From Gracilaria domingensis (taxonomy: Eukaryota; Rhodophyta; Florideophyceae; Gracilariales; Gracilariaceae), in the NCBI GenBank assembly GCA_022539475.1, contig VCMS01000038.1:1-64000 (forward strand): DNA of 64,000 nt, given 5' to 3'. Position numbers and translations under genes: made by a program. This document shows, piece by piece, positions 1 through 52,488 of the stretch. The notes beneath the pieces are model-generated. The model saw nothing but the letters and a program-made list of their open reading frames with translations. It did not search any database and was not told the origin of the DNA. How positions within the stretch are numbered: position 1 is the stretch's first letter; each line of letters begins with the position of its first letter.

Positions 1-181
1 TAGCTCCGAATCACGACGTAGGCCGACACGCGACGCTATCGCTCCGACACGCGACGGTATCGCTCCGAGCGGACACGGACACGGACGAGACTGGCAGTGC
101 GCTGGGAGGAGCTGCCGAAAGCGGGGGTGCCCAGCGTAAGTAGCCATTTAAAGGCTCGCCTCCGTTGTTTGCGCTGAAGCG
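1..181 (+). promoter_or_regulatory. Promoter and 5' leader region of transposon copy 1, with short tandem repeats
   Basis: Positions about 11-80 hold two to three imperfect copies of a unit close to TATCGCTCCGACACGCGACG. From about 80 on the sequence matches the leader of copy 2 (52300-52410). It contains CATTTAAAGG (about 146-155), a TATA-like element about 30 bp before the first ATG at 182. The tandem repeats are not in copy 2, which has different sequence there. That the region drives ORF1 is inference. Confidence 0.45.
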
Positions 182-343
182 ATGGATTCCACCGATGTTG
201 GAGAGGAGATACATCCTATCGACATGAGTGCTCCGCCTCCGGCGTTCCATGCATATGTCAGACTTTTCTTGGTTCTTCGCGATGCTTTGGCAAACAGCGA
301 TGGAGGCCCTGATCGGCCACGGGACGTGGGGTTAGAGGGTTAA
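182..343 (+). pseudogene. Probable true 5' end of ORF1, cut off by a one-base frameshift
   Basis: A 53-codon frame starts at an ATG 30 bp after the TATA-like element and ends in TAA at 341-343. The frame of the 391-1149 ORF is open from 313, so the two overlap. One missing base near 339-341 (GGTTAATAG) would join them into a protein of about 320 residues. The same ATG and the first 26 codons are kept in copy 2 (52410-52488), which supports this as the original start. Copy 2 is deleted beyond that point, so the join cannot be tested inside the window. No domain was recognised. Confidence 0.45.
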
Positions 344-390
344 TAGAGTTCTGCGCCGAGAACTATAAGGATATTCCGGAGGCAAGGAAG

Positions 391-1149
391 ATGTTTGAGG
401 AGGCCACTAACTCCAAGAACCTGCAGAACTTGACACTGCAACAGCTGCGAAAGAGTGTTGTGAATAACAAACCTGTGGAACAGCGATATCTTGTAACGAA
501 GCTTCTTGACAAGAAGGACGGGGATGAGGACCAGAGACTGCGCGATTTTTTCCTTCTCTCTATGGATATGGGTATATACCTACCGGTGCGATGCCTGGTT
601 GGTTATTTCATGACCAGGAGAAAGCAGGTTCTGAAGACGACAGTGTTCATCCCACCAACAGCTGTGAACCCATTTGAGGTCGTTATATACTTATCATACC
701 TCGGCCACATAATGGGAGAGAACGACAACATCCGAATGATGAAGAAGAAACAACCGAAAAAGAAACGAAAAGTGAACCATGCACCAGCTGTGTACATACC
801 CACTTTTACGTCGTTCTCCAAAGACAACTGTGATCGACTGGGATTCGGTATCAGTGAGGTCGTATGGGCATGGAGTTGTTTTGCGGCTCATCTTGGATAC
901 ACGAACGTTCAGCACATGGTGAAACCATACATTTACATGAATATGCAGACGTTGAAGTATACAGCGCTAGAGACACGGGAGTCTGGTTATGCCCCGCCGA
1001 GCCAGAGTACTCGATTCAACACAAAGGATGTGCCACAGAGCAGTACTAGTGGATCGGTGGAGACCTTGAGTGATGAATGCGATACAAACCTGCGAATACT
1101 GGCTAAGGAGTTTTTGACAGACCTCGAAACCATATGCACCCCACGATAG
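391..1149 (+). CDS. Transposon ORF1 protein of unknown function with a nuclear localisation signal
   Basis: The ORF has 252 codons from ATG to TAG, and I do not recognise the family. A basic run at residues 118-128 ends in PKKKRKV, a textbook monopartite nuclear localisation signal, so a nuclear role is likely. The middle (about 85-110) is hydrophobic and the C-terminal third is Ser/Thr-rich and polar. The frame is open upstream to 313, and the gene probably begins at 182 in another frame, separated by a one-base deletion. The methyltransferase-SET ORF starts 25 bp after its stop on the same strand. Such tight spacing suggests one transcript, read by splicing or reinitiation, but no splice signal is proven. 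Copy 2 has lost all but the first codons of this gene. Confidence 0.55.
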   Translation: MFEEATNSKNLQNLTLQQLRKSVVNNKPVEQRYLVTKLLDKKDGDEDQRLRDFFLLSMDMGIYLPVRCLVGYFMTRRKQVLKTTVFIPPTAVNPFEVVIYLSYLGHIMGENDNIRMMKKKQPKKKRKVNHAPAVYIPTFTSFSKDNCDRLGFGISEVVWAWSCFAAHLGYTNVQHMVKPYIYMNMQTLKYTALETRESGYAPPSQSTRFNTKDVPQSSTSGSVETLSDECDTNLRILAKEFLTDLETICTPR

Positions 1150-1174
1150 CCTCTATAGCTTACGGGTTGATCAG

Positions 1175-3319
1175 ATGAGGAACTGGATAGAGTTTTCGGA
1201 GATACGGATGGATACCGTATCTAGCTCTGACTCCGGTGAGTTGCCTGCTCGATTTCAGAAGTTTTCGGAGTTGCTATGGAAACCGATACAGGATATGCGT
1301 CATGCGGCAGGGTTCCATGTCGGCATTCACGCGAAACCTGATATTGAACTGACGAAAACCCCTAAAACTTCCGGTAATGCCGAACCTTCTTCGACCAAGT
1401 CTGCCCCACCCCCACCTCGTCGAGAGTATATGAACCTCGTGAGCTCCGATAGCGACGAGTTCGAGAAGCCGGTGAATCTTGCGGAGCATGAATCTCGGGT
1501 TGCTGGTTACAACATCCAAAAGACTGGTATTGAGCCGCCCATGAAGGGGATATCCAGTCTCCTTCGAATGAATATGGACAAGGTGTGGAAGGGGATGAGA
1601 AAGTCACACTTTGTAGCGTACAACTGTGACATGAAGGACCTGAGGCACACACACGAAACGTTTGTGAATCAGAGTGAGATTTTATGGGGTGAGGCACAGC
1701 TTGTCCTAACAGACCCTCCCTTTAACACTCGAAGGAAGAGGAACAAACGGAATAGTGGTCACGATGTCTTCAGTGAGGAAGACATGATCCGTACGGCTGA
1801 CTTAATAAGTTCCGCGCTTCGGTCAGGTGGGCACTTCATTATATTCTGTGCCATGGCACAGTTTCATGTGTGGCACAGGATACTTTCGGAAACGGCGAGT
1901 ACGAAAGATGAAGCTGGAAGCGAAGGTAAACCAGAACTCATGCCTTCGTTTAAAGTGGATGCGAATCCACTGGTGTTCATCCGGGATCGCAGTAATGTTG
2001 GAGGGAATCCACGGAAGTTTGGGATACAGCCCGTAACGGAGTACGCCGTTCATGGGGTGAAGCGTGGATTGCGACCATCGGAGGAAGCCAGTCTTACTCC
2101 ATTTGAGGAGAACAATTTCATTCCTTCTACTTTCCCGGCTAACAGGAATGTAATTGACCGGGTGCCCAAACCGAGAGCGGGGGAGTGGTTGACATGGAAG
2201 GTACATGAGCCAGGTAGTTCAGTACCAGGTGGGCAGTACATAAGACCGGAGCAGAAGTCGAGGGAGTTGATGAAGGAGTTGATATGTCGCTTCACAAGAC
2301 CGGGTGATCTTGTCATGGACATGTTCGCGGGAACTTTTTCTACGGGTATGGCGTGCCTATCGCTGACAAAGCAAAGGAAGTTCTTGGGGTGCGAGAAGAA
2401 TAGGCCATGTTTCAGCCATGCGAAGCACCATCTAACGACTCTTATGGCCGAAGTTATTCGCGGGGGGAAGAATGACATCTTGGTTGAACAGGAGGTGGTG
2501 GATGCGGCTTCAACGACCTATGAACGGGTTCCACATCGGGACCGAGGTCGGCTTGAATGGGAGGCTCCCTTTGGTTACCCCCAGTACCAAGTGATGCCTG
2601 GACATATTACTCAGTTCCTAGGAAGATACTGGAAGGACTGGGACTTTGTCGACAAGTGTGGAGAGCGTACTGTAGATCTTTGGGAGGGGAAGTACCGAGG
2701 AGCTCTGAATCTTATGGATATGCATATGCTGTTGACTGTTGAAGCCAATCGCTATCGCTTACATGTAGCATCTTCTAAGATTCGACATCCCCGTGCTGGT
2801 ATGGGGGTGTTCACAGAACATAAGATATTGGCTGGGGAAACTATCTGTCATTTCTATGGAACTTTGGTATACACGGATCTGACGAACCGGAAGGAAAGAC
2901 ACTTAACGTATGGAAGTGGCTGTCTCGGCGCAACTCCAGTGCGGTACAAGTTGTTTTCTATGATGGTCACTGTGACTGGTACGGAGTTTCTGCACCTGAG
3001 GAACAGACCAGGACAGGCTCAGGATAGAAAGGAGAGCGAAGTCTACATTGTCCCGGCGCCTTTTTGCATCGGGGGCTACATTAACGACGCCGGATATCAT
3101 GCCGGGGATCCCGATTTATCGGAGCCCCGGTCAAACAGGACTCGAAGTGCCAATGTGCAGGTGGTGGAAGCGAAGTCCGTGATACAGTTCAAGTCAGACC
3201 TTTCTAACTATGCTCTACTTCGTTGTAGAGCAGTAAGAGATATTGAGAGGGGCGAAGAGTTGTATTTCGACTACGGAGAGCAGTACGCCTGGGACTGGGC
3301 TCTGACATTGGAGCAATAG
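1175..3319 (+). CDS. Beta-class DNA amino-methyltransferase fused to a SET domain
   Basis: The 714-residue protein carries two modifying domains. Residues about 145-425 look like an N6-adenine/N4-cytosine DNA methyltransferase: motif IV DPPF at 180-183 comes before the AdoMet-binding FAGT at 384-387. That circularly permuted order is typical of the beta class. Residues about 532-703 look like a SET domain: GMGVF at 542-546, a YINDAG segment (635-640) in the place of the usual NHS motif, NYA at 678-680 and GEELYFDYG at 693-701. SET domains usually methylate protein lysines, so the fusion could link DNA and histone marking. Residues 60-105 are Pro/Ser-rich linker. It sits between ORF1 and the coiled-coil gene. 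Substrates are unknown, and the weak NHS motif leaves SET activity open. The ATG is the first in the frame. Confidence 0.85.
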   Translation: MRNWIEFSEIRMDTVSSSDSGELPARFQKFSELLWKPIQDMRHAAGFHVGIHAKPDIELTKTPKTSGNAEPSSTKSAPPPPRREYMNLVSSDSDEFEKPVNLAEHESRVAGYNIQKTGIEPPMKGISSLLRMNMDKVWKGMRKSHFVAYNCDMKDLRHTHETFVNQSEILWGEAQLVLTDPPFNTRRKRNKRNSGHDVFSEEDMIRTADLISSALRSGGHFIIFCAMAQFHVWHRILSETASTKDEAGSEGKPELMPSFKVDANPLVFIRDRSNVGGNPRKFGIQPVTEYAVHGVKRGLRPSEEASLTPFEENNFIPSTFPANRNVIDRVPKPRAGEWLTWKVHEPGSSVPGGQYIRPEQKSRELMKELICRFTRPGDLVMDMFAGTFSTGMACLSLTKQRKFLGCEKNRPCFSHAKHHLTTLMAEVIRGGKNDILVEQEVVDAASTTYERVPHRDRGRLEWEAPFGYPQYQVMPGHITQFLGRYWKDWDFVDKCGERTVDLWEGKYRGALNLMDMHMLLTVEANRYRLHVASSKIRHPRAGMGVFTEHKILAGETICHFYGTLVYTDLTNRKERHLTYGSGCLGATPVRYKLFSMMVTVTGTEFLHLRNRPGQAQDRKESEVYIVPAPFCIGGYINDAGYHAGDPDLSEPRSNRTRSANVQVVEAKSVIQFKSDLSNYALLRCRAVRDIERGEELYFDYGEQYAWDWALTLEQ

Positions 3320-3567: not shown

Positions 3568-5963
3568 ATGGGTATAACGCCGAGAACGCGAAATAGTACG
3601 CAGCGGAACAAGAGTGGACAGAAGAAGAGAAGAGCATCGGATGATACGAATCAGGCTACAAGCACCGCACTTCCTAAACGGAAGTCGTCCTCGACGAAGG
3701 AGAGAGTCAGTGGGCGTCCTTCTACAGGACTCTCTCGCCCATCTCGCAGCGGAGCGTCTTCCGGGATTGCGTCAAGAATTCGTGGATCAGCGAACGATGT
3801 CGTGCCGTCAACTGCCGATAATGCAAATCGTGCATCTGTCTCTGCTCCTCAAGAAGATGAGGTAACTCGGCCCAGCGGGTCAGGACAGGAGGGCATGACA
3901 ACTGGAACCGAAGAGGTTCGTATGACACCAAAACCTTCATGTCCCCGGCCGATATCGAAGACCGGAGCTACTGGGGCGCGGGTTACGCCGCCCAGTGGAT
4001 CTGGACAACAAGGGACAATGACGAGAAGTCGTGAGAGTCCTAGTATATTAAGATCGTCACGTCCATCCCTCTCTTCTAGAACTGGGGCCGCTATGAATCG
4101 TATCATGCCTCGCAATGGGTCCGGACAAGGGAGAAACACAATAAGAAATCGAGAGACAACTGATAGACGAGTTACTTTTCGACCTTCCCCTCTTTCCCGA
4201 GCGGGGGCCGTTGCAGCTCGTACGAGGCCCAATTCATCTGATATACCATGCCATGGAGGAGGACATACACGGGAGTTGGAGCTCGGAGCCGTGCCAAGGG
4301 TGGACACAGAACGCCTGCAGCCTCTCGTGGCTAAGGCTATGGCACATGAGGATAGTTCCGATAACGAAATAACACCGAATCCTGCGGCATTACCGGGGCC
4401 TGTCGCCGAAGAAGCTAGGGAAATAACGGAAGATATCCAAACTGGTGTGAATTCAAGCTCTATGAACAGACCTGATCTTTTAAATGAACTGAATTGCTTG
4501 AAAGAAAAGGTTAAGACGCTACAAGAGGACTTGATGGTTCGGGGAATTCTAGTGAAGCTCGCCCAAGAGCAGAGTACGGCTTTGAAAAAGAGGCTTGAAG
4601 AGAAGGATCTAGTCATTGAAGGGCTAAGAGGGGCACTGAAACAGGAGGGAGATAGGAGTACACGTGCTGGTGAACCTGGGCAGACAGGTCGAAAGAAGCA
4701 TAAAATTGAGGTGTGCGACGAGTTTCGAGGGGTTGCTCGAGCAGTGTATCACAACATGCTGACGTGGGCAAGGAGAGAAACAAGTGAGCTATGGCTCGAA
4801 GGTGAGTCGCCCACCCGAAATTGGGGTAACCCTGCCGAGAAGGTGGAAGACGCAACTGAGAGTGGGGAAGGGCTTATTGAGCCGGAGGAAGGTGGTTCAT
4901 ACATGGTTCCTAAAAACCCCGTGGAGCTCTTGGGCAGTTTTGGCATGTTCACACCGTCGGTAGAGGGGGGGCCAGATGCTTTGCTGAAGAAAATGGTTGA
5001 AAGCGAGTTGAAGGAGTTGGGCTGGGAAGGTATTAGAAAAGCATCTCTTACCGACAGGTGTATACTGGAACTTTGTGCAGATATGTGCCTTAGGCAGAGA
5101 ATGCGGCAGACCATGAGTGACGTCGTGGGCGTTCGTAAGAGAAATACGAGGGATAAACTATTTCTGCTCCTGGGGTACGATCTGATTTGGAGAAGAACAA
5201 AGCTGGTAGAAGAGAATGCTGACGAACTCACAATGCAGTTGAAGGAAGCGCAGGAGAACATACTGCTTCTTGACGAAAATGGTGTACCGAAAACTTCATG
5301 GTGGAGAAAAGCCCCATTTGTTCCTCTAAAGTACTCCAATGCGGACAATGTCGAGGATATGCCGACGGAAGATCAAGACTTGTTCTTCCGAAACCGTGTC
5401 GGGGTACAAGTGCTGAAGGAATTTATTGGGTATGATGTGGAAGACAAGGATACGGGCACCTTTTTAGATGGCACAATACTGTTGCTCGCACGTTTGGACG
5501 CTTGGGTGTTGACGGTTGTGAGCCTTCTAAGTACGGATGTGTAAGGGGTGGCCAGAGACAGAAACTGTTTACAAAGAAGTTTGCCGAACTGCTACCTCTG
5601 TGTTTAAAGAATGTTCTGGGGAATGTTAGGCAACGTGTCTTGAGGACCAATTCCAGCGAGTTTCATAATTTTGGAACGACAACGGAAGATTGGACTAAGG
5701 TTCTTGGTAATGACATGAGAGAGGCTACATTTGGATATCGAATGCCGTCGAACGGAAGACTTTACCTCACTGTGAAAGAACAATTTTTTATTGACAGTGT
5801 GAGCCGAAGATTGGGGTCTATTAGCGATTGCTTCGTTGGTGAATGCGAGGAAGGGGATATGGAGTTCAAGGAAATGGACATGAACGATTTCGGAAGTAAC
5901 ACAGGATCACAAGAAAAGGCACCACAAGGTGAACATGTAGAGGATGGAGCCCTTAATGTTTAA
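3568..5963 (+). pseudogene. Transposon coiled-coil protein, frameshifted in this copy
   Basis: The frame is open for 658 codons to TAA at 5542-5544. It then continues in the next frame to TAA at 5961-5963. Copy 2 has one more base at this point (TGTCAAGG against TGTAAGG) and reads through, so copy 1 has a one-base deletion. The full protein would be about 800 residues. Residues 1-220 are basic and Ser/Thr/Pro-rich, with about three diverged repeats built around SGSGQ. Residues about 300-355 form a clear Leu/Glu/Lys coiled coil. The C-terminal half is acidic and helical with no recognised domain. A structural or DNA-tethering partner of the other element proteins is possible. Its stop overlaps the stop of the converging transposase gene. 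Confidence 0.65.
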
Positions 5964-8900
5964 GGCTGTACAAGATCAACGTGCTCAGTTGGTCTTTCAT
6001 CTGAATCATGATAGAATCGATTGATGTAGAATCGGTGTTGAAACCATTGAAGTGGAGGACAAAAAGGTGGAGCAGGGTAGTTTGATCGAACAACATGGAC
6101 AGTTCCCTGTAGTGCAGAAGCCGGAACCATCCCGTACCAAGGAGTTAACTCTACGATAGTCTCCGCTTTGGAATGACGAGGGAACGGAAGAGTGTGGTTC
6201 TTTTCATCGTTTGTAGCCCACCGTAAAGATATGCATTTCAATATGTGGTCGATGTTTGTTGCGGGGGGTAAAACCTCGAAATACCGGACGAATGCCACCT
6301 TTGGTGCGGTAAGTGCAGAATCAAGGAGAGATATTCGAATCAGAGCGACTACCTGGGCAACCCAAGTCTCTGAATCTTCTCCGCTTACCAATACAGTGGA
6401 AAACTTTGGCTTTCTACTGGGACCAAATGCTGGAGAAGCGAAGACACGTTGGATGATGGGGTATTTGGGTCGTCCCAGCTTAAGTGCCTTAGAAGACGAA
6501 TCGAAGTGTTCAAGAGTCGGAACGAAACCGCCTTTCACGAGGGCCGAATTCACCAGAGTTATCCTTGTCTTTTCTGGGAAGTATGTAATAGAGTGCTCAT
6601 CCAGTGTTTCTTTCACGAGACTGAGGAAAGGAGGAAGGGCCTGTTCACCAATTTGATCAAGAATCGACCTTGTGTCCCTACTTGAGAACATCTCTGTAAC
6701 AGCAGTCCATGTTTTTGAACTGGACATACTTGAAACACAATGTTGAAGAGCTCGTAAAGTGAAAGAACGCCCTCTCATTGCAAACCGAGGAAGCTGTGTG
6801 GAAGTTCCTGGTAAACCTGGATTACGCTGGTAAGGAGTATTGCCATTCCATTGCTTTCTAACATGTCCGTGGTCAATGGAGCGAATAGTCTCCTCCACAG
6901 CCGTTGCTGTTCTTCTGGACGTCTTTTTGTAGTGTCTCTTAAATAGCAGGTGTGCATGTTCGTATATGCCTGCGTCGTAGTACTTGATACTTCCCAGACG
7001 GCGAATATCGTCCACGAGATGATCGAGAAGATGAAACTTCAGAGTTCCCAGTCTGGAGGGATGAAAATCCGCCAGAGTCCTTGTTGCGGAACGCTTGAAG
7101 GCTTCAATCTCCAAACTAAGACACAGGAGAGAGCTTTCAGTCCAATACGGGTCACGATTGTATCTGAATAAGGTCGAGAGCAAGTCCGAATACTGAGAGA
7201 AAACGGTTGTGATTGGGGCAACGTCCTGTTCTCCACAGCATATATCAAAGAATGCTCCTATGAAGGGAAAGACCATGTCAAGTGCTTTGTAGTTTTTGGC
7301 CTCCAGCATTCCACGGAGACCGTCTTTCGTGAAGATACCATTCAAAGATTTGCCTTTCTCCTGCGTGGAGAAATCGATATGTAAACCTTTGGCAGGAGAA
7401 TCGCGTTCTATGGCAGCTAGAATTGCGTTTGCATGGTTGAGGAGTTGGGTGCGTATCGTTCGAAATGAACGCGATGCAGATGTTCCTATTGTGGTGCACA
7501 GGGTGTCTGACTGCAGTCTCTCGATTGTGGCCGTTTTTATCAGCTTTGAGATGCCGAGATGCAAGTTGTGTAATGGTTCGAATGAGAACAGACTGTATGG
7601 AGACAATCCCGGGATCATTCCAAGGCTTACGGAAGTTTCGAGGAACGAAGGAATGAGAGATATGGAATTTGAATGCATCAGAGTATCCTTTTGAGATCTC
7701 CTCTCCCTCGCACGACGAGGACGTCTTTCCGCCTCGTCTTTTTGTGCATGTTGCAAGATAGCTGTGTATGTCTTTCGGATGCTTTTCGTGTGCTTTTGAG
7801 AACGTCCGATGAATGAGGTGGGAATAGGACTGCATAAAGATGAGCGAGGGCCTTTGCATCTATGACACGGGCTTTCCGTTTTGGTCCCATGAAGAATGGA
7901 CAGAATGTCCTTAGCCTCATGAATATCCGCACAATAACTTGCAAGCAGAGAATGGCACACTCGACTTAGTTTGTCTTCGCCGATGAACTGAAAACCTTTC
8001 TGCGTGAGATTTAGAATGGGCTCCAGGACTTGACGAAGAGATTCTTGAAGGATTTGCATCCTGGACTAGCGTAGAGACTTGCTAGAAACGAATGGCATTG
8101 CGTCTGCTTCAGATGCGGAAACCTCGATCAGTGTGGTGGGGAAGTATGCCACTACTGTGAGGTCATCACGGATACACTTACGGCGAAGCTCGTCGGAGAA
8201 GTTGAGAAATATGAGGTGAAGAGGATAGGCGGTAACCGATGTTTGCTTTAGAGTTGTTGAAGACTTATCGGTGTATACCTGCAGAAGACCTACGAAAGAT
8301 TCACTGTAACTTATTTCTTGGGAGTACCACACTATTCTACTATCCAAAGAGCCCATGACCATTTCCTTAAGTTTTGAGGTGGCGTCTCTTGCGAGAGAGC
8401 CGGACATGGGGTGAGATATTTTCGTGGAGTGGGTCTGAGGTATAGGGTGGAAGAATGTGTTTTCGTTGTTAGCCAACTGGAGCTGTTTCACAAGTGTCTG
8501 AACGGGGTCTCTCGTGTAGAGGGTGGCGCTGAACTTACATCCTTCTGGCGAGACAGTTCTGCGATTGAAACCGTCCTTTGAGGCGTATCGTTCGAAAATG
8601 GCCTTCTTCAGTTCTGTACAGCGCTTGGAACTTGTTATGGTCTCGTTGAATCGCTTTTGCGAGAATCGCGGGTCCCGAAGTAGCCCTATTAGCTCGTCCG
8701 CCTCACGATGACCAAGGTTGGAAGCTACTGAAGCCAGACAAACCGTGAGATAATCCATATGCAAATCACCAAGGGCCTCCTCAGAAGGCACTGGGCGGGA
8801 ACTGCTTCCGTGTTCTCCCTCTAATGACGCGGGACCCGGGGAAGGAGAAACACAATGCGAAGTGTCCGGAATGGGAGGGGCGCACGGAGTGGGGTCGACG

Positions 8901-9139
8901 ATGTCCTCGGACACTGGAGGCTCGGGAAGGCGACAAGGGGCAGTGACCGTTTCGGAAGATGCGGGCGCGGGCGCGGAAAGCTTGAGACGCTTGCTTCTCC
9001 GAATGGCCCGGCTATTGTCGTCTTCCAGCGCTGCTTTCAGACGAAACGGGCAATGGTTGACATGCTGTTGAAGAGATAAGACTCCTCGGCGAGTAACGAA
9101 GGGGCACCCACGCTTCTTATGTGTACAGTAGTAGACCAT
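5960..9139 (-). pseudogene. Plavaka-like transposase, interrupted by one nonsense codon
   Basis: The gene is collinear with the intact 1059-codon gene of copy 2 (56615-59794). The frame is broken only by TAG at 8066-8068, where copy 2 has GAG. The ATG at 9139 has a good context (CCCATGG); the open frame extends 28 codons further upstream without an ATG. The protein starts with a Cys/His zinc-finger-like segment. Motifs of the Plavaka branch of the CACTA/KDZ superfamily follow: YTDK then a segment ending NFSDELRRK, a CADI.EAK segment followed by PCHRC, a PLHNLHLG motif, and YEHAHLLFKR. Part of the evidence is thus shared with copy 2. The nonsense codon should remove everything after about residue 357, including two of three presumed catalytic acids. 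Confidence 0.75.
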
Positions 9140-9504
9140 GGGAAGAAGAAATGAACGAGAAACGACGACAAAGACTGCAAGGGAAGGTCGTCCGAAGGGA
9201 GAAGGAGATCGAGCGACAGTCAATATCGACGTCTTGCTCAGAACGGAGAATATATTTTGAGTTTAAATCACGTGCTTTCGTTCAAAAAGGAACGTAGGTA
9301 CACGTCGACCTCAACACAAGGGTGTACTTCTCGTATTATCTACCACTGGTTATAAACCTGTGGTTTCCCAACGTTGTACGCTGTACACTTGTCCAATCTC
9401 GCACAGAAAAATAAATCTCTTCCCTCCGCCGCCGCCCCCGCCAGTCCGACGTCCGACCTTTTGTTACCGTCGTGATCCGTGCCATCCTCGCGTTCTACTC
9501 CGCT
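9140..9504 (-). promoter_or_regulatory. Transposase promoter region
   Basis: This is the upstream region of the minus-strand transposase. The + strand reads TATATT at 9251-9256, giving a TATA-like AATATA on the minus strand about 112 bp before the ATG at 9139. The region is kept in copy 2 (59795-60159) and copy 3 (40826-41190), as expected for a promoter under constraint or for recent duplication. No ORF of its own is credible. Confidence 0.4.
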
Positions 9505-10846: not shown

Positions 10847-10971
10847 CCCAAGCAACTATCTTCAAATTTTGAAATAATTGATCTCGATATTTTTTCAAAA
10901 AATTTACTGGATGACCCTTGCCAATTTCTGGACGACCCTCGCCAAAAACTAGCATCTGCAAGAGACAGACG
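10847..10971. repeat. Right terminus with subterminal repeats, copy 1
   Basis: The motif TGGACGACCC, or a one-base variant, occurs three times (about 10850, 10908, 10929) before the terminal CTGCAAGAGACAGACG. Short subterminal repeats are usual binding sites for transposases of the CACTA/Plavaka group. All three copies in the window stop at the same base, which defines the end. Confidence 0.65.
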
Positions 10972-12495: not shown

Positions 12496-12513
12496 CGAGT
12501 TTCCACCAAAGCG

Positions 12514-39357: not shown

Positions 39358-39788
39358 CGTCTGTCTCTTGCAGATGCTAGTTTATGGCGAGGGTCGTCCA
39401 GAAATTGGCAAGGGTCGTCCAGTAAATTTTTTGAAAAAATATCGAGATCAATTATTTCAAAATTTGGAGATAATTGCTTGGGTCGTCCAGAATCGCTGTG
39501 CAGTAAATACTGGTGGGTTTTCCACTCGTGCTAGTTCTTTAGTCGAGGGCTACCTGAACTGTATTTCGCGAAGTCTAGGTTCAGTTTCCATTAAGGTGCA
39601 CATTACACGATACCTTCTGCGGAATGATACCCTGCAACGCATGGAATACTAGTGCTAGTACAGATGATGCCCATTATGAAATCATACCGTTTTATTCGTA
39701 TCTATTCTTCTATCGACCGCTTTTGCTAACCACTACTTCGCTGTATTACATGTACCATATCCCCATGATGGAGCGGGTGTAGGCGCAA

Positions 39789-39931
39789 TCTGCGGCAGAT
39801 GCCGCAGACTGCACGTCCACCATCGGCTGTATCGGTAGAACAAATACGCACTCCAAGAGGATGAGGCGCGAAGTGCCTCATCCTCTCCGTTCCTCATGTA
39901 GGGAACCATGCCCAGATGCATGGTTCCCTAC
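39789..39931. repeat. Row of three hairpins, copy 3
   Basis: The counterparts of 10398-10540 in reverse order. The outer two stems are perfect. The middle one has a changed loop side (GCGAAGT between the arms) but keeps its long stem. Confidence 0.7.
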
Positions 39932-40761
39932 TTGAGGAACCTGCACCTGCAACTCGTGAGCTACGTCCGCATAAAAAGTCATTTACCTGTATACGCAAGC
40001 AGAAAGTATCCATAAGTTAGTCAATGATCCGTTAGATACATTTGAAATGCGAATGGAACGTACCATTGATAAAGCAAAACAGAAACGTTGCGCTAGAAAA
40101 GTCGAGGGACCTAGTAACTCGCAAAATGAAAAAGAAGAAGGAAAGGGATCGGTTAGATTACCAGCCCACCATCATCGTAAAGCGCGAAAGGTGTCGAAGC
40201 GAGAACTCACAAGCAAGGACACCAAGAATGCCCATGCAGCAAACATACCGCAAGATGCGATAAACGAGAGAGCAGCCTATGTCCCAACCAAGTACCAGAA
40301 TCGCCTATCCCGAACAGCCAGAGATCGATCTTGAGAGACGAAATGAAATTGGTCGTTTACCTGTATACGCAAGCAGAAAGTATCCATAAGTTAGTCAATG
40401 CTCCGTTGGATACAGTTGAAATGGGATAGAACGTACCATTGATAGAGCAAAACAGAAACGTTGCGCTAGAAAAGTTGAGAGAACTAGTAACTCGCAAAAG
40501 TAACCCAAAGCCTTTTTCCTGCCGTTTACATGTCGCAGAGCGCGAAGAGACGTGGTGAGGATTGGTTAGTTTAGAACAAAGATGCGTAGAAGGAAATGGA
40601 AGCACGTACGAAAAGACTGCACGGAAAGACTGCACGGAATACATCCGTGAGATACGGATGCTGTCCGCTTTATGGAGGCGTCCGACGAGGGCGGAGAAAG
40701 AGAATGAGGTACGCTTCATGTCCACTTAATGGAATCCATTCTCAGCACGCTACTTCGTAAT

Positions 40762-40825
40762 CCGTCGTACTTTTTTCCGCCCTCGCACTTCGTAGCGAGT
40801 GCGAGGGCGGAAAAAAGTACGACGG
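40762..40825. repeat. 64-nt hairpin with perfect 28-bp arms, copy 3
   Basis: Arms 40762-40789 and 40798-40825 match exactly around the loop TCGTAGCG. Copies 1 and 2 each have one or two mismatches. Confidence 0.8.
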
Positions 40826-41190
40826 AGCGGAGTAGAACGCGAGGATGGCACGGATCACGACGGTAACAAAAGGTCGGACGTCGGACGGGCGGCGGCGGCG
40901 GCGGAGGGAAGAGATTTATTTTTCTGTGCGAGATTGGACAAGTGTACAGCGTACAACGTTGGGAAACCACAGGTTTATAACCAGTGGTAGATAATACGAG
41001 AAGTACACCCTTGTTTTGAGGTCGACGTGTACCTACGTTCCTTTTTGAATGAAAGCACGTGATTTAAACTCAAAATATATTCTCCGTTCTGAGCAAGACG
41101 TCGATATTGACTGTCGCTCGACCTCCTTCTCCCTTCGGACGACCTTCCCTTGCAGTCTTTGTCGTCGTTTCTCGTTCATTTCTTCTTCCC

Positions 41191-41535
41191 ATGGTCTACT
41201 ACTGTACACATAAGAAGCGTGGGTGCCCCTTCGTTACTCGCCGAGGAGTCTTATCTCTTCAACAGCATGTCAACCATTGCCCGTTTCGTCTGAAAGCAGC
41301 GCTGGAAGACGACAATAGCCGGCCCATTCGGAGAAGCAAGCGTCTCAAGCTTTCCGCGCCCGCGCACGCATCTTCCGAAACGGTCACTGCCCCTTGTCGC
41401 CTTCCCGAGCCTCCGGTGTCCGAGGACATCGTCGACCCCACTCCGTGCGCCCCTCCCATTCCGGACAATTCGCATTGTGTTCGTCTGTGTTCTGCAAAGT
41501 GGAATATAGTCTGTTCGCTTTGGAAACTAAGCTAG
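41191..41535 (+). pseudogene. Truncated transposase: zinc-finger end with an unrelated tail
   Basis: From the same ATG and promoter as the full gene, the first 97 codons match the transposase N-terminus. They include the Cys/His finger (residues 4-31) and a basic run IRRSKRLKL. At 41481 the homology ends and 17 unrelated codons follow to TAG 41533-41535. The product would bind DNA if the finger does, but has no catalytic core. It could act as a competitor of the full transposase, or simply be debris. Confidence 0.7.
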
Positions 41536-41949
41536 TTTTGGGGCTATTTGGGGCGCGCGAGGGGGTAGCAGAGGCTGGCACTCAAAAAATTAAGAAATTT
41601 TGGAATATTAAATTCCATTTCGCGCAGTTTAGTGCTTGGGTCCTCTAGTTTTTGTAGAGGTTCTACTTCGCCGCACCACCCCATTCACTCTTTTCCGCGA
41701 CCCTCTCTCAAAACTGCACTCGTGCTAGTTTGCCTTTCCATTTTCTCCCATGTTGCAATGCCAATCGCAACTCATCCCACCTCAATCATCCCATCACTTC
41801 TTCCCAGTCCACACCACCCCCGCTATTTACCCATTTCTCGCCCATCACGCGTTCCCATCCTCTCTCTCCGTCTCCGCAAACGTCATTTTGTAGAAGTCAG
41901 GTGGACAACCCTCCCCCTTCTCGTATACCCGCCTCGCCCCAAAACGGCT
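41536..41949. other. Gap with pyrimidine-rich + strand, no gene seen on it
   Basis: The C/T-rich + strand yields long Pro/Ser/His-rich frames that look like composition effects of the minus-strand gene and its 3' flank. No separate feature is supported. Confidence 0.4.
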
Positions 41950-42879
41950 TCAAATCCCTCCCATCCTTCTCTCCTCCTGTCCCCTCAGAATCCCCTTCGC
42001 AGTCCGCGCTACCTCCGCCGCACTCCTAAACCCAGTCACCACCGGAGCTCCCACTCCCTCCCGCGCCACCTCCTCCTCCACCTTCTTCATCTCCTTACGC
42101 CTCTTCTTCAGACGGCTCTTCCCATCCCCAACCCCACCACCCTTTGTCTTCGGTGTCACAGGAGACCCCTTCTGCACCGCCACCCTTCCCACACTTCCCT
42201 TCTCCGTCTTTCCCTCCACACCTCCTTTCAGCGTCTCCTCTTCCACCAATCTTTGCCTCTTGCCCAGCTCCTTCACCTCCTTCTCCAGCACGTCCAACCT
42301 CTCGTTCAGAACCCTATTCTCCTCCCGCAACTCTCCAACCTCCCTTCCCGCACACTCCACTATCCCATACACATGATTTCTCATCTCCACTCCCAATACC
42401 GACAACGAATTCCGCAGGCTCGAAATCGCCTCAACCGAAACACCACTACCACCCCCACTCAGCACCACACCGCCCATTTCCGTTACAATCTCCACAATTC
42501 CATCGTCCAGTTGCTCCTTCATCACCAACCCCAACATCCCCACCCTCGCCTTCATCTCCCCCACAAACCGCATCTCCCTGTCACCCTCTCCGCCCCCACT
42601 CTCTATCTGGTCTCCAACCTCTAACTGACTCAGATGCACCGCACCCCTTCTCTCCATTGCGACCCCCTCCACCTCCAATTCTACCCCCTTCTCCACCTCA
42701 TCACCATCCCCTCTCCTCGCCTCACACTTCTTTCCTTCATCAGCCACTTCCTTCTTCTGCGACATCCGACCAGCCGCCGTAATCACGTCCTCTTCCCGCT
42801 TTGGTGACGGCGTCTGCGGTACCTCCTTCCCCTCCAACAGCACCCACAGCTCCTCATCCTTCACGTATCCGTTCGACAT
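41950..42879 (-). CDS. Hypothetical coiled-coil protein
   Basis: 309 codons from ATG 42879 (MSNGYVKDEELW) to the stop at 41950; the open frame extends 32 codons upstream without an ATG. The N-terminal third is Lys/Glu-rich. Around residues 175-215 is a clear coiled coil (LREENRVLNERLDVLEKEV). The C-terminus is basic (KKRRKEMKK). There is no known domain. The minus strand is strikingly purine-rich, so + strand frames over it are shadows. It may be a host gene or transposon cargo; no copy occurs beside copy 1 within the window. Confidence 0.55.
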   Translation of the reverse strand: MSNGYVKDEELWVLLEGKEVPQTPSPKREEDVITAAGRMSQKKEVADEGKKCEARRGDGDEVEKGVELEVEGVAMERRGAVHLSQLEVGDQIESGGGEGDREMRFVGEMKARVGMLGLVMKEQLDDGIVEIVTEMGGVVLSGGGSGVSVEAISSLRNSLSVLGVEMRNHVYGIVECAGREVGELREENRVLNERLDVLEKEVKELGKRQRLVEEETLKGGVEGKTEKGSVGRVAVQKGSPVTPKTKGGGVGDGKSRLKKRRKEMKKVEEEVAREGVGAPVVTGFRSAAEVARTAKGILRGQEERRMGGI

Positions 42880-43512
42880 CTTCAGAAGAAGAAGTAGTAG
42901 TTGGATCGAAGTTTCCGCTGCGATACAGTGCAATCGAGCTAAACTGTCCTGTCCACCCCCACTGTCCAACCACACGGGCTATATCCAGCACCATGATTGT
43001 ACCTGTTTCCCTCATCCTATTTCCCGCCAAAACATCTACTGTACACCTCCGCATCTTCCAATATTTAAGCGCCATCTCTCTGTCCCCTCTTCACATAGTC
43101 CCCACCCACCTCGCCTCGACCGGCGATATTTTTCTCTTCCACCATAACCTCACTCGATGGTTATAGCAAAACAGGAAGATATTGCCAGTGGAGGCAAGCT
43201 AGGGACTAGTGATTGCACTTAGAGTTGCTCACCCTCTGTCTCGACTGGGGGCATGTTCTTCTTCCGTCACATCCTTTGTGGGTTGTGACAAAAAAAGAAT
43301 ATGTCACCACTCGACACAGGATGGGTAACAATGATAGCACGTAGAGTAGTTCATCCTCCCTCTCAGCGTCCACTGGGGATATATTGATGTTCTCTCACAT
43401 CCTTTCCCGGTTGTGATACAAGAGAAATACATCTCCAATGGACACGGAGAATATAGTCGTGATAAAACGTAAAGGTAACAATGTAATAAACAATAAATTT
43501 ATGCTACTATCT
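42880..43512. repeat. Gap with diverged tandem repeats of about 130 bp
   Basis: Between about 43080 and 43470 a unit recurs two to three times, with the landmarks TCACATCCTTT..GGGTTGTGA and a stretch like CACTGGGG. The copies share about two thirds of their bases by eye. No ORF is supported. Upstream of it (42880-43075) lies the promoter side of the coiled-coil gene. Confidence 0.45.
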
Positions 43513-43840
43513 CTAACAAACCTTTCGAAAACCAGCTATGACATGAGCTGGGTTACTCGAGCCAAAGATGGCAGATCCTGCAACTGAAATGTTTGCACCG
43601 GCCTTCACTACTCCTTTCACAGTACTCAGTCCAATACCTCCATCCACCTCTATCCCTATTCTTGGGTACAACTTCCTTGCATGTCGCACCTTATCCAGAA
43701 CACCCTCCATAAACGCCTGTCCTCCAAACCCTGGCTCCACCGTCATCAACAATAACATGTCTACAACTCCTTCCTTCATAAGTGCTTCTACGACCTTTAT
43801 AGACGTATTCGGGCGCAATCCAACTCCATCCTTTTAATTA
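43513..43840 (-). pseudogene. rpe: 3' part of ribulose-phosphate 3-epimerase gene
   Basis: The minus-strand frame of about 108 codons matches the C-terminal half of the epimerase, the pentose-phosphate and Calvin-cycle TIM-barrel enzyme. Visible motifs: GLRPNTSI, MTVEPGFGGQ, IEVDGGIG with its catalytic Asp, and GANISVAGSAIF. The N-terminal half, with the first metal-binding residues, is absent. The frame is closed by a stop directly before KDGVGLRP, with AAAAG before it, as at a 3' splice site. It could be a last exon of a gene whose other exons are missing, or a captured fragment. I found no upstream exon to 44 kb. Confidence 0.8.
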
Positions 43841-44230
43841 TGGCAATCCGATTGAAGCTATAAAACCCGTTCACCTCATTTATGAAGCCAAAATGGCTCC
43901 TTTCATCCTGTATTCAAGCTCCCCGTAACTCGTACTTTACAACTACTTTACAACTCAGGTTCGAAATCAGTTTCATTCATGGCACACTTTTTACTCTTCC
44001 ACCTACCTTTCATAAAAGATCATCACACTTTGTGGCTTGTCGTCTCATACAAGGCCTATCATTCATTCAGTACAATCACATATCATACATTTCGCTCACT
44101 TTCACAAAGTGAACCATGTTCCCGTTCTGCGCTTCCCAACCGTTTGTACTTACGTATTACTCTTTACCCCAGCAGTTCTCCGCCCCATCTTCCCTTTTTA
44201 TCGTCACACAAAAACAATCAAACACTTGCA
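43841..44230. other. Gap between divergently placed genes
   Basis: No supported ORF. It is AT-richer than its neighbours and presumably holds the promoter of the gene starting at 44231. No clear core element was picked out. Confidence 0.35.
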
Positions 44231-45132
44231 ATGAACTCCCAGTCCGACATGCCTCCCACTCCGCCTCCGAGTCCCAGATACTCTGACGTCCCTCAGGCCT
44301 CATCTCCCGCCCGAACGACTCGGGCCGTTATTGTTGGAAGGGGGCGTATAGGTACCATGCTGGCGAACGAAGAAGATACGGTCATTTCCGCACACGAATT
44401 CTGCAGCATGGCTGCTACCTCTCATCTTTCTGATGTACCGATACTAGTTTGTGGAAGAACGAACACCCTGGAGACCGTAATTCAGGCTTGCCCTTATTCG
44501 CTCAGAGAGAATCTCGTTTTCTTCCAGAATGGAGACATCATACCATTGCTTTCGAAGCTCGGTGTGGACAAATGTTCAAAAGTTGTCCTATACGTTGGTG
44601 TCCCTCAAGAAACGCAGCTCCGCAGGATGGTGTCACTCCTCAAAGTCCGGATGGTCTCACTGTCGCAACAGGAAAGTGGGCCTCCAACGTTGCAGACAGG
44701 TTTAGGTCTATGGGTCTCACTTGCGCGGTTGTCGACGAAGACACATTTCTCGTAAGCTATTATGAGAAGCTCGTGTGGCTATCAGCGTTCAACATCGTCG
44801 GGGCCTCAAGAGGTTTCATTCCTATGGACGTAGTCGCTACGGAGTGCAGTACGGTTGTGCTCACAATAATGAAAGAGCTGTTGAAGATAGTTTCGCTTAA
44901 GACAGGTACTACTTTCAACCTGGAAGAGACCGTTGGGCGACTTCTTGCATATGGGAAAACTCTCGTTGGCTTCCCTACTTCTTTCTCCGACTTTCAGTTT
45001 AGGAACGCGTACTTCTACGACTTTTCCCGCCAAGAAAGAAACATTGTAGGCGGTGACCCCGCTCCTTTTCATACAAACTACGTCAACGTTGTTAAGGAAA
45101 AGTTATCCCCCTCCCCATTCCCCCAGCTTTGA
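44231..45132 (+). pseudogene. Rossmann-fold NAD(P)-binding protein, ketopantoate-reductase-like, frameshifted
   Basis: ATG 44231 opens a frame with a Pro/Ser-rich start and a nucleotide-binding loop, VIVGRGRIGT (residues 34-43). It continues with ILVCGRTN and LVFFQNGD. Near 44610-44640 the coherent sequence passes to the next frame, which gives GLTVATGKWASNVADRF and YYEKLVWLSAFNIVGA and runs to TGA 45130-45132. The second half has the helical layout and the Lys-Leu segment of ketopantoate-reductase-like proteins (ApbA/PanE superfamily). One indel, or one sequencing error, separates the halves. The family call is tentative; a Rossmann oxidoreductase is firm. Confidence 0.6.
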
Positions 45133-45758
45133 GGTTCGAACACATGACTTTTCGGTGTTGTAAACCTTTTAGAGATAGTTAAACATAAAAGTTACTTTAT
45201 CGAAATGACCTGTTCCTATTACATTACTTATATTGTTCGTCCTTCTGTGGTTCAAATATGCCCCTTTAAATCCTACATCCGTTATCACTAATACTTCGCT
45301 AAGATTTTGCTAGATAGAAAATGGTCATTCCATATCATTAAAGTGCACGATACTAGTAACGAAACAGGTACAAAAATTGTGATATTTCTGAAGAACTAAG
45401 CGTTTGCATTACTTGGGGCACCCGTATAAAGTAAGGTAAACCTTTTATGGGTTTCAACCCATAATGGAGGTTGTTTTACTCTTCTTGATTTCTAAGCTCA
45501 TGTAAAGATATTTACAGTTTTCTTTACCCACTTGAACCCGTACATATAATTTATGACTAAATCATCCTTTCTTTACTTCAAATCGATGCAAAAACTTCTC
45601 CTCCTAGTAACGTTTTAAAACAGTACTACAATACCCGTATATGGTCGTTCGTAGACTCTTTTTATACTACGAAACACCTTGTGAACATCAATCACATCCT
45701 TCTCATTCGTATACCCACACCCATTTGCAAAACGAACCCTTTCGAAAGCTTTCAAAAC
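45133..45758. other. AT-rich gap
   Basis: No ORF or repeat of note. It contains the 3' flank of the oxidoreductase gene and the upstream region of the phosphatase-like gene. Confidence 0.4.
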
Positions 45759-46630
45759 ATGTATAACTCAGAAGTTAGAGCCCAAGAAGTAACTCCTCAG
45801 CAGCTGGCTAACGAAATATTCGAAAATGGCTACGCCGTGATTAGTGATGTTGACGGTACTCTGAAAGAGCTGGGGAGAACATTCCTGCCGAAACAGTCAA
45901 ATGCATGAAGTACATCAACGCACGCGTTGGTTTCGGAATTGCTACTGGGCGAGATATAGAGGATGCCGAGAGTTTCATGGAGCACCTGGGTGGCTACACT
46001 TTTGGCATCTCTGGAAACCAAGGCGCACGGGTGAGATTATCCAATGGTACCGAAATTAATCAGGACCTTGACAGGGAAGGCTACAAAAGATGTGCAGCCG
46101 AACTTGAGAGACTTGCACTCTCCTTAAATGAATCGCACGGACTTCACGAAGAGCGTCAACAAGCAGTGGTGAGCACTAGAAAAGACAGTGGACTCCCTAA
46201 CTTCACGTACAATGGACTGTCGAAGTGGAAAACAGAAGTTAACTCCGGTATTTCAAAAGTGTTGACATCCTTTCCGAACCTGGTTGCGTACCCTCAGGAT
46301 GAAAACTGTGATATAGGGGACATTCGTTTCACGAAAAATAGTGGGGCGCTAGCCTTGGTTGAAAACGACCCCCAGTTCGACACACATATAATCGTTGCTT
46401 TCGGGAATGCTTCCAATGATGGCCCTCTATATGAAATGGCAACCCTGGCAGTTCATGTGAAGGGAGAAGACCATTCAGCAGCGGTAACATATCTTGTTGA
46501 TGGCGTGGAGGACGTGCATGAGACCATCAGAAGGGTGGCAGAACTGTACGGGTACAGAAAATGCAAGTGTCAAAGGTTTAGAAATGCTCTTGGAATTTGT
46601 TTCAAGTGCTACGATGCCCTTAATACTTAG
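45759..46630 (+). pseudogene. HAD-superfamily phosphatase-like protein, frameshifted near the start
   Basis: ATG 45759 leads to VISDVDGTL (residues 28-36), HAD motif I with nucleophile Asp30 and acid/base Asp32. After about 45875 the frame is lost, and the next frame continues with ETVKCMKYINARVGFGIATGR and ISGNQGA. Motif IV appears as FGNASNDGPLYEM (about 46401-46439). The frame ends at TAG 46628-46630. Comparison with the related gene at 46683-47542 fixes the break as one missing base. The length of about 290 residues and motif order fit Cof-type or trehalose-phosphatase-like HAD enzymes. The C-terminus ends in a Cys-rich tail. Substrate unknown. Confidence 0.7.
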
Positions 46631-46682
46631 CTATGATATGAGATCTCAGTAATAAAAGTGTCGTGTATATCTCAATACCCTT

Positions 46683-47542
46683 TTATGAATCTTGGTGGTT
46701 TTTATCGTGCTGCTTTTCCTCGTAGCCGTACAACAGAGCCACCAACATAATTGTCGAATGTACATCCTCCACGCTTTCGAACAGGTTGTGTACTCCACCC
46801 GGGATACAATCTTCTTTGACGTGAACGCCGTACACGCCTACCTCATGCAAAGGCCCGTCGCTCAAAGCACTTCCGAACGTCACGACGTCATCCGTATCAA
46901 TAAATCTCGGTTCATTATCCACAAGATTTTCTCCTCCGCTTCCTTTTGTGTATCGCTTGTCCACAATTTCGCAACTTTTATCGCCGGGATAGATAACAAA
47001 CGCATCCATCTTCTGCAACAGGTCCCCAATAGCAGAATCCACTTCTTCTTTCCACTGCCACAGTTTGTTGTACACGAAATTGGGAAGGCCACTATCACTT
47101 CTGGTCTCCACGAACCCCTTGTCATCATCATTCACAATACCATGCCTCCTATTCAAATCCCTTGCCAGAACAGTAGTCCGTCAACAGTGTGGTCAAGGGT
47201 GTGATCATTGAATGCACCCTTAATTTCCCTCTCGTCAGAGAAACGCAGGAAAGCTCCATGATTCGCCGAGACACCAAACTTATAGTCTCCGAGTCCTTCC
47301 ATTTTCCCCTCCACGTCGCCCACATCACCCCCTGTGACAAGTCCGAAACCAACACGTTCGTCAATGAACTTCATACACTTCACAACTTCTTCTGGAATTG
47401 ACTCTCCTTCTCTTCTCAACGTTCCATCAACGGAACTTAATATACCGTAACCATTGGCATATATGAACTTAGACAAGGTATTTGGTGAAATTTCCGCAAG
47501 CTCTCTCTTTCCTCTGGCCATTTTTTCCTGATACAGCACCAT
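46683..47542 (-). pseudogene. Second HAD phosphatase-like gene, frameshifted and lacking the nucleophile
   Basis: A tail-to-tail paralogue of the preceding gene, ending 52 bp from it. ATG 47542 leads to ILSSVDGTL (residues 34-42), where the nucleophilic Asp of DxDGT is Ser. Then FGLVTGGDVGD and VSANHGA follow. Near 47155 the reading changes frame and goes on with SGLPNFVYNKLW and VVTFGSALSDGPLHEV to the stop at 46683. The paralogue's matching SGLPNFTYNGLSKW anchors the join. Loss of the nucleophile argues against phosphatase activity even apart from the frameshift. Confidence 0.7.
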
Positions 47543-47554
47543 GATGCACAAGAC

Positions 47555-47740
47555 CGCATGACAGGACTCTATAGACTTCTCAGTTTCTACTTTCTCTTAA
47601 GGACCTTTAAAGTGCAGTTAGAAATGTTANATACAGTCACGCATAACTGGCACAAGTTACCGCATAGACAGGAACTGTATAGACTTCTCAGTTTCATACT
47701 TCTCTTAAAAGCAACCTTAAGTGCAGTTTCAGAAATGTTA
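47555..47740. repeat. Tandem duplication of about 115-120 bp, with one undetermined base
   Basis: CTATAGACTTCTCAGTTTC followed by TTCTCTTAA, TTAAGTGCAG-like and AGAAATGTTA landmarks occurs at about 47570-47629 and again at 47684-47740. The two copies differ by small indels. The single N of the window (47630) lies at the end of the first copy. Confidence 0.6.
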
Positions 47741-47961
47741 GGACGCTACATGTTCAATTGCGAATTGACTGGTGCCACCAATGATGTTAACGATACCGAG
47801 CATTTGGCATGTTGCAATTAGACGCAACTGGACCAAAGACGTTTGACATTTGTTCAATTACCAGCCTGCCGCACCTTTTCTATGTTCATATGTATAGCCT
47901 TGTAATAGTATACTACTCTTAATACTCGCAAGACACACATAATTTACTAATCATCTCATTC
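47741..47961. other. Gap before the dioxygenase gene's 3' end
   Basis: No ORF, repeat or other feature was seen here. Confidence 0.35.
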
Positions 47962-48627
47962 TCATCCACTTCGAGGCGCTCGCAGCCTCATTATTGGCAA
48001 ATCGTCATCACTACTACTCTCGAGCACTTCGGTTCTACCGGCGTCCGCTTCCACACCAATCTCCACGACCACTTGGTCTTCGTCCATGTCAACCGCCCCA
48101 CCCTCCTTATCGGACAACAGTTCATCCTCCGCCTCCTCCTCCTCGTCACCATTGACAAATGTGGGTCGGAAATCCCGCACCCGATGAACAGCATCAGGTA
48201 GTGCGTAGCCCTCTGGTACCATGTACATGTGGTATCTAACCAGCAAATCCATAGACTCGGGCCTAACCACCTTGTCTTTCCCACTTGCTCCAGCATGTGT
48301 CACATCACCACGGCCCACGAATACAGAGTTTGGTGGGATGATTATCTTCTTCTCTGGATACACCTCCGACATCACTCGCAACTGTTGGTTGTTCATCCCC
48401 ACCAGTTGATGGCTTCCAGCGCTCACCCAGAGAGGAAAGCCCTCTTTCCCAGAGGCCATTACAAAGTATCCGGGGTTGCCAGTATTCATTGTTTCCTTCG
48501 TAACCAGACCACTGAAGTCGGTGTGCAGCGTCTGGCGCTTGCACTTTCTCGTCGTTCCCAGAAATCGACCACCAGTTTTCGGAGTGTACATCTTCACAGC
48601 TTCCCTTTCATTGTCCCATAGTCCCAA
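47962..48627 (-). CDS. Catalytic part of a 2-oxoglutarate/Fe(II) dioxygenase, continuing the ParB-like gene in another frame
   Basis: 221 codons, without an ATG at the head, overlapping the end of the 48608-51877 ORF by 20 bp in the +1 frame. It holds the iron facial triad of the 2OG dioxygenases: His35 and Asp37 in LHTDF, and His111 in GDVTHAG. It is followed by an Arg-bearing strand (LLVRYHMYM, Arg131) fit to bind 2-oxoglutarate. The preceding frame ends with the N-terminal part of such a fold (QNGYCVLDGF). The two halves therefore belong to one protein of about 1,300 residues. The break is a frameshift mutation, a sequencing error or a programmed +1 shift. The C-terminal tail is acidic. 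The substrate may be a nucleic-acid base or a protein. Confidence 0.75.
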   Translation of the reverse strand: MGLWDNEREAVKMYTPKTGGRFLGTTRKCKRQTLHTDFSGLVTKETMNTGNPGYFVMASGKEGFPLWVSAGSHQLVGMNNQQLRVMSEVYPEKKIIIPPNSVFVGRGDVTHAGASGKDKVVRPESMDLLVRYHMYMVPEGYALPDAVHRVRDFRPTFVNGDEEEEAEDELLSDKEGGAVDMDEDQVVVEIGVEADAGRTEVLESSSDDDLPIMRLRAPRSG

Positions 48628-51877: not shown

Positions 51878-51939
51878 GTTGAACAGCTATTGCAGTGAAA
51901 GGTGTATATCAACAATACGCTCGCTCTGGACGATACAAG

Positions 51940-52394
51940 AACGGATGCGAGCCTTTAAATGGCGACTTACGCTGGGCACCCCCGCTTTCGGCAGCTCCTC
52001 CCAGCGCACTGCCAGTCTCGTCCGTGTCCTGTCCGTGGCCGCTCGCACACTGATTGTACGCTTTAGAGTCGTGGAGTTCGCGCAATGATGACTCACGCGA
52101 GCAATGGTCGCGTTCGTTGGCGCCGCTGTCCACGTGTATTTGCGGGAGTAGGCTGTACATGGAAGTGAATGAGTGTACTCTTGACTACTATGCAAAGCAT
52201 TTGAAGAGCATGATTAGAAAACGCGACCATTGCTCGCGTGAGTCATCATTGCGCGAACTCCACGACTCTAAAGCGTACAATCAGTGTGCGAGCGGCCACG
52301 GACAGGACACGGACGAGACTGGCAGTGCGCTGGGAGGAGCTGCCGAAAGCGGGGGTGCCCAGCGTAAGTCGCCATTTAAAGGCTCGCCTCCGTT
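51940..52394. promoter_or_regulatory. 175-bp inverted repeat forming a divergent promoter region
   Basis: Arms 51940-52114 and 52220-52394 are inverted copies with one or two mismatches, separated by 105 bp. Each arm holds the CATTTAAAGG TATA-like element. The left arm ends 62 bp before ATG 51877 of the ParB-dioxygenase gene on the minus strand. The right arm ends 15 bp before ATG 52410, the ORF1 start, on the plus strand. The same leader lies before ORF1 in copy 1. Shared control of both gene sets is therefore likely. That the arms are promoters is inference from position. Confidence 0.65.
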
Positions 52395-52409
52395 GTTTGC
52401 GCTGAAGCG

Positions 52410-52488
52410 ATGGATTCCACCGATGTTGGAGAGGAGATACATCCTATCGACATGAGTGCTCCGCCTCCGGCGTTCCATGCATATGTCA
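52410..52488 (+). pseudogene. ORF1 remnant of copy 2
   Basis: The first 26 codons of ORF1, from the same ATG and leader as 182 in copy 1, survive up to the deletion junction at 52488/52489. Past the junction the frame runs out of register with the methyltransferase gene. Confidence 0.55.

Follow-up and report, generated by a model that had tools for sequence, protein, structure and literature searches.

Can a mobile element own, on a single polypeptide chain, the means to write both DNA methylation and a histone mark, and what would such an enzyme do for the element that carries it? The question is raised by a 64,000-nucleotide stretch of DNA from the red alga Gracilaria domingensis (GCA_022539475.1; contig VCMS01000038.1, positions 1 to 64,000), referred to here as the window, in which a cut-and-paste transposon of 20-23 kb related to Plavaka carries a gene, here called MTase-SET, that joins a DNA amino-methyltransferase (MTase) to a SET domain. 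The original prediction, made from the sequence alone, had claimed such a fusion for an open reading frame (ORF) of 714 amino acids (aa) at positions 1175-3319 of the forward strand. The architecture of the protein and the linkage of its gene to the transposon are now regarded as virtually certain, and a role of the protein as an anti-silencing writer is put forward tentatively.

The ORF is present as claimed and holds the MTase and SET domains in one frame, but the ATG at 1175 is not the true start, and the N-terminal part of the protein continues upstream. Copies free of lesions read without interruption as one frame of 1045 aa (protein P0001, locus L006), of which the reported ORF makes up the C-terminal 714 residues. 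Alignment of copies sets the gene start at the equivalent of window position 182; the ORF at 391-1149 belongs to the same gene, and two single-base indels, one near 333 and one near 1142, break the frame in the first element copy of the window (copy 1). The genome (77.9 Mb assembly, 680 contigs) was searched for further copies, and 62 genomic copies were scored out of 846 candidates: 9 have an open frame of 1055 codons and a match free of stops, 18 span all 714 residues without a stop, and 44 have a stop or are partial. Among the eight best-scoring copies, 20 differences are synonymous, 11 are nonsynonymous and 2 are stops; the ratio of nonsynonymous to synonymous change (pN/pS) is 0.17, a value that the selection of these copies biases downwards. 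The genes of copy 1 and of a second copy in the window (copy 2) differ by 10 synonymous and 8 nonsynonymous changes. The protein is laid out as a helical N-terminal region, a beta-class DNA amino-methyltransferase and a C-terminal SET lysine methyltransferase.

Each of the two predicted halves scores above its Pfam cutoff. The N6_N4_Mtase profile (PF01555) matches ORF residues 175-412 with an E-value (E) of 1.9e-15, scoring 57.9 bits where the cutoff is 26.7. Motif IV precedes motif I, with DPPF at residue 511, FAGTFS at residue 715 of P0001 and RPEQK between them, and the permuted, beta-class order that had been claimed, DPPF before FAGT, agrees with both profile and fold. The predicted fold resembles the solved structures of CcrM, M1.HpyAVI and M.BceJIV (19-25% identity over the aligned fold), beta-class N6-adenine MTases that share the motif order and fold of the seaweed transposon protein but are bacterial and lack a SET domain.

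The SET profile (PF00856) matches ORF residues 542-701 (E 1.1e-7, 32.7 bits against a cutoff of 22.4). MTase chains took up the list of fold matches to the full model, and the SET part was therefore modelled and searched separately, giving matches to PRDM9, SET7/9, SETD8 and PRC2; a profile (A1) matches EZH2 at 6e-6. The canonical SET motif is NHxxxPN. In the seaweed family it reads IND...ANV, with the first Asn in 60 and the second in 62 of 65 aligned rows, and Asp in 57 of the 65 at the position where His is usual. Pfam matches to P0001 at E up to 0.1 include no chromodomain, SET standing instead. By family profile and fold, this half is a SET lysine methyltransferase, for which a histone substrate is predicted.

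Residues 460-1045 were searched against about 5.8 billion proteins at E up to 1e-5, and 64 homologues were found, Chondrus crispus being the sole organism name among those listed. All 64 contain the MTase domain, and SET, at a threshold of E 0.01, is present in 54 (30 of 32 and 24 of 32 in two Pfam batches). The Chondrus crispus protein, named 'adenine specific DNA methyltransferase' (P0007) and compared as a protein, has the same architecture and is 34% identical over 96% of the query region. Across the alignment of 65 rows, DPP[YF] retains its D, P and P in 64, 63 and 65, respectively, while R, E, Q and K of RPEQK are present in all 65, as is the glycine of motif I; ten checked MTase residues are intact in 61 of the 64 homologues, five SET residues in 53, and all 15 in 51. 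Conservation is roughly equal in the two domains, and in both exceeds that in the remainder of the protein. Because both domains are present in most homologues, one of them from Chondrus crispus, and 51 of these keep every checked residue, the sequences identify MTase-SET as an old, selected fusion family. Likewise, the intact 714 residues in 18 of the scored copies and the two domains in 54 homologues argue that the fusion is no artefact of one copy.

As to origin, two candidates were rejected. A nearer stand-alone MTase was sought with the MTase domain only, and the one match, P0066, runs into the SET region and is thus a fragment of the MTase-SET family. Derivation of the entire fusion from prokaryotes or viruses was likewise set aside, as no kept locus on viral or genome contigs reaches the SET domain, which starts at residue 873: the best 80 of 164 viral contig loci match within residues 498-793, the best 80 of 102 genome contig loci within 481-784, and of the 75 phage records that match, those listed (20) stay within 498-754. 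Where prokaryotic and phage matches cover the greater part of the MTase domain, they are beta-class MTases of the ordinary kind, 22-29% identical. The N-terminus of one homologue, P0053, weakly resembles ParB (PHROG, 0.014), and a phage protein named ParB/Sulfiredoxin ranks fifth among the viral fold matches; these weakly suggest that the MTase descended from a phage-type ParB-MTase gene that was joined to a eukaryotic-type SET domain.

The claim of carriage by a cut-and-paste element is borne out by the termini, the 2-bp target duplications, a Plavaka transposase and the presence of the gene inside a duplication-flanked copy. The element ends in CGTCTGT...ACAGACG (full termini CGTCTGTGTTCTGCA...TGCAAGAGACAGACG, patterns of 28 and 23 bases), and exact ends number 458 (left, 28-base) and 465 (right, 23-base) in the genome, with 0 for each reversed-pattern control. 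Alignment of copies sets right termini at 10971 and 61986 of the window and a left terminus at 41482; the right terminus at 10971 is followed by six different flanks in the six copies compared. End pairs were picked from about the first 100 listed of each end, in one orientation and at a plausible distance, and identical 2-bp duplications flank 11 of the 18 pairs compared, where chance would give about 1 in 16: 8 of 10 and 3 of 6 picked pairs, and neither copy 2 of the window nor the C164 copy. Pairs C34, C41, C29, C18 and C50 lack a matching duplication, and many picked pairs with clean duplications lie only about 10 kb apart. The gene-bearing copy C8:278212-298361 is flanked by AC/AC duplications; 201-bp probes at 288500, 290000 and 291500 correspond to the start of a divergent partner gene and to MTase-SET at window positions 681-882 and 2185-2385, and a probe at 293000 corresponds to the ORF that follows MTase-SET. 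Since this duplication-flanked copy holds it, the MTase-SET gene moves with the element. Probes in two further duplication-flanked copies, C42 and C31, match near the second ORF of the element and in the partner gene. A separate insertion of MTase-SET into the element was considered and rejected: the limits of the deletions in two copies without the gene, C19 and C6 (the latter a deleted copy carrying an insert), differ and leave no single clean empty site. The right ends of the C108 and C71 copies were not found at their expected places. One end in the C218 copy is 79% similar to the left end of the element, which suggests a related second element family.

The transposase of copy 2 matches PF18759 with E 5.6e-18 and 65.7 bits against a cutoff of 26.3, and the two halves in copy 1 match at 8.3e-6 and 1.5e-5, each slightly below the Pfam cutoff. 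Plavaka elements make target-site duplications of 2-3 bp, and their transposases have motifs C(2)C and H(3-4)H placed between the catalytic residues. The termini are described as TGT..ACA in PlavakaA and CATCA..TGATG in PlavakaB (PMC12730594). The 2-bp duplications of the seaweed element are as in PlavakaA, but its outermost bases match neither clade, and it is therefore named Plavaka-related and assigned to neither. The sequences CHRC and HLLDH, seen by eye in the copy 2 transposase, are candidates for the C(2)C and H(3-4)H motifs.

The divergent partner gene yielded no Pfam match, its C-terminus none at E up to 10, and its C6 version (P0069) gives a weak ParB-like match (PHROG, 0.0036). Two annotated Gracilaria domingensis proteins share 90 and 92% identity with the partner, and the names under which NCBI lists its relatives (SasA, Mediator subunit 15) look like misannotations. 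A 2-oxoglutarate dioxygenase was tried for its C-terminus and rejected, as an HxD...H pattern was seen by eye only and no Pfam (E up to 10) or relevant PDB match was obtained. The ParB-like partner and the ParB-like N-terminus of P0053 gave no significant BLASTP match to each other (E 0.14). About 100 bp with a TTTAAA box are common to both genes in mirror orientation, and this mirrored sequence ahead of each suggests matched expression of MTase-SET and its ParB-like partner. Between the two genes in the C218 copy (L017, about 4120-4900) lie several repeats of long, near-perfect palindromes with a core like TTAGGGTAGGTACCCTAA and G- and C-runs on its sides; they were not found in the window, where the corresponding stretch is lost or lies beyond the contig end, and are possible binding sites or an insulator.

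What the enzyme would do for the element may be outlined as follows. The MTase half would methylate adenines in element DNA and the SET half would methylate lysine on nearby histones, and both marks would keep element copies transcribed, the protein being expressed jointly with the ParB-like partner from the mirrored promoter. That the double methyltransferase of this Plavaka-related element acts as such an anti-silencing writer on the element is judged a little short of an even chance. The wider proposal is doubtful: that writing N6-methyladenine (6mA) on its own DNA and marks on adjacent histones, with the ParB-like partner and the mirrored promoter, gives the element a heritable 'active' chromatin identity without host machinery, in a family that is old and extends beyond one alga. 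Several observations weigh against the protein being an anti-silencing writer. The copies bear little mutational sign of cytosine methylation, strong CpG decay not being seen in them, and matching duplications flank just one of the five gene-bearing copies compared. The short, duplication-flanked copy C19:318453-328788 is an internal deletion without MTase-SET that moved without the gene in cis; together with the many picked pairs about 10 kb apart that have clean duplications, it suggests parasitism in trans, with short derivatives living off the full element. Finally, the MTase half is most likely of the N6-adenine type, a prediction that DPP[YF] and the best fold matches favour, yet N4-cytosine enzymes match too.

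Among the alternatives, self-regulation is fairly unlikely: methylation of sites in the element would control transposase binding or expression, and SET would modify the transposase or the chromatin at the ends. Host Dam methylation exerts such control in Tn10. The seaweed element encodes writer and transposase side by side, its ends are very numerous, and DIRS retrotransposons carry Dam-like adenine MTases (PMC5890265); against this, the outermost 23-28 bases contain neither GATC nor GANTC, the enzyme's own recognition site possibly being another, and C19 moved without the gene, though protein supplied in trans is possible. Quite unlikely is the alternative that one or both halves are non-catalytic in this genome, the protein being a structural or DNA-binding accessory or a decaying gene, as might fit the two indels of the reported copy and the 44 copies that have a stop or are partial; the 18 copies open over 714 residues and the checked residues conserved in 51 homologues speak against it. 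Distinctly improbable is a function in silencing or self-restraint, in which repressive DNA and histone marks would be placed on repeats, so that the host suffers less damage or rival elements are suppressed. A loop of N4CMT and SETDB1, to which this alternative may be likened, has been proposed for bdelloid rotifers (PMC8885841), but the seaweed gene belongs to the mobile element itself, no chromodomain occurs among the Pfam matches, and some 460 exact copies of each end mark an element that has not been kept in check. An accidental fusion, or a host gene that the window merely happens to include, is scarcely credible and already contradicted by the same position within the element on several contigs and the same architecture in 54 homologues.

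The features of the window are collected in Table 1. A Pfam search at E up to 1 matched nothing in the second element ORF, and copy 2 has flanks without a matching target duplication. An opposite-strand ORF in the C218 copy ends similarly to the HAD-like hydrolase ORF, a Glu/Gly-rich, coil-like ORF (41950-42975, reverse strand) lies at the left end of copy 2, where GC skew is very strong, -0.469 (42001-44000), and further unidentified ORFs lie left of the partner gene. Outside the element copies, ORFs resembling Ty3/Gypsy (11860-18669, forward strand, the last ending in a chromodomain-like stretch) and Ty1/Copia retrotransposons (32638-37648, forward strand) were recognized by eye.

Table 1. 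Coordinates of the element copies, genes, domains and termini in the 64,000-nucleotide window
Feature	Position	Strand	Basis or remark
Element copy 1, left part missing (contig begins)	1..10971	+	~98% aligned to copies on other contigs
Putative core promoter of MTase-SET gene, ~100 bp	70..169	+	94-98% identical repeat
MTase-SET gene, full extent	182..3319	+	1045 aa in undamaged copies; here split by indels
Reported ORF, C-terminal 714 aa of MTase-SET protein	1175..3319	+	ORF list, Pfam
N6_N4_Mtase domain, beta class	1697..2410	+	PF01555
MTase motifs DPPF; RPEQK; FAGTFS	1712-1723; 2243-2257; 2324-2341	+	
SET domain	2798..3277	+	PF00856; fold match to PRDM9, SET7/9, SETD8
Second element ORF	3568..5544	+	Basic, coil-like by eye
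Plavaka-type transposase, two ORFs in copy 1	5960..9223	-	PF18759
Right terminus ...CTAGCATCTGCAAGAGACAGACG	10949..10971	+	Exact genome copies (465)
Truncated third element copy, right end only	39358..41481	-	Alignment of copies
Element copy 2, both termini, internal deletion within MTase-SET	41482..61986	+	Alignment
Left terminus CGTCTGTGTTCTGCAAAG...	41482..41509	+	Exact genome copies (458)
HAD-like hydrolase ORF inside element	45905-46630	+	PF08282 1.7e-7
Divergent partner gene, two overlapping ORFs	47962..51877	-	Weak ParB-like region
Mirrored core promoter before ParB-like gene	51937..52035	-	Repeat alignment
MTase-SET remnant of copy 2, without equivalent of 261-1834	52299..53973	+	
Second ORF in copy 2, 765 aa	54152-56449		
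Plavaka transposase, uninterrupted, 1087 aa	56615..59878	-	PF18759

Transposon-borne epigenetic enzymes are known, and the seaweed element differs from each kind. The bdelloid rotifer N4CMT, a beta-class eukaryotic enzyme that makes N4-methylcytosine, has a C-terminal chromodomain, a reader, where the seaweed protein has SET, a writer, and the available text of PMC8885841 does not describe it as transposon-borne, whereas MTase-SET sits in a transposon. The HarbingerS and MuDR elements found in Phytophthora are likewise DNA transposons with a SET histone methyltransferase gene (Kojima and Jurka 2014, cited in PMC12730594), but they belong to other superfamilies, and the available text of PMC12730594 mentions no DNA methyltransferase fusion. 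TET genes, thought to counter silencing, occur in fungal Plavaka, Kyakuja, Dileera and other transposons (PMC12730594); these too are DNA transposons with a DNA-modification enzyme, but theirs is an eraser (a TET/JBP dioxygenase) in fungi, and the seaweed element has a writer in a red alga. DIRS elements with Dam-like enzymes and other retrotransposons with DNMTs (PMC5890265) encode their own DNA methyltransferase, as the seaweed element does, but are retrotransposons with Dam-like or C5 enzymes; the term 'SET domain' is absent from the main text of PMC5890265. A literature search found no transposon DNA MTase-SET fusion in the titles and abstract openings among the matches listed, and subscription papers may mention one. 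The dual-writer architecture is apparently undescribed and, if the protein is active, would add a double enzyme to the SET, DNMT, Dam and TET genes that transposons carry.

Separate proteins, readers and writers, normally carry the crosstalk between methylation of DNA and methylation of histones. In the seaweed both writers lie on one chain, owned by a selfish element. If active, the protein would be a natural and portable tool with which to ask whether 6mA instructs chromatin state in eukaryotes, and a seaweed with hundreds of element ends makes the question directly testable.
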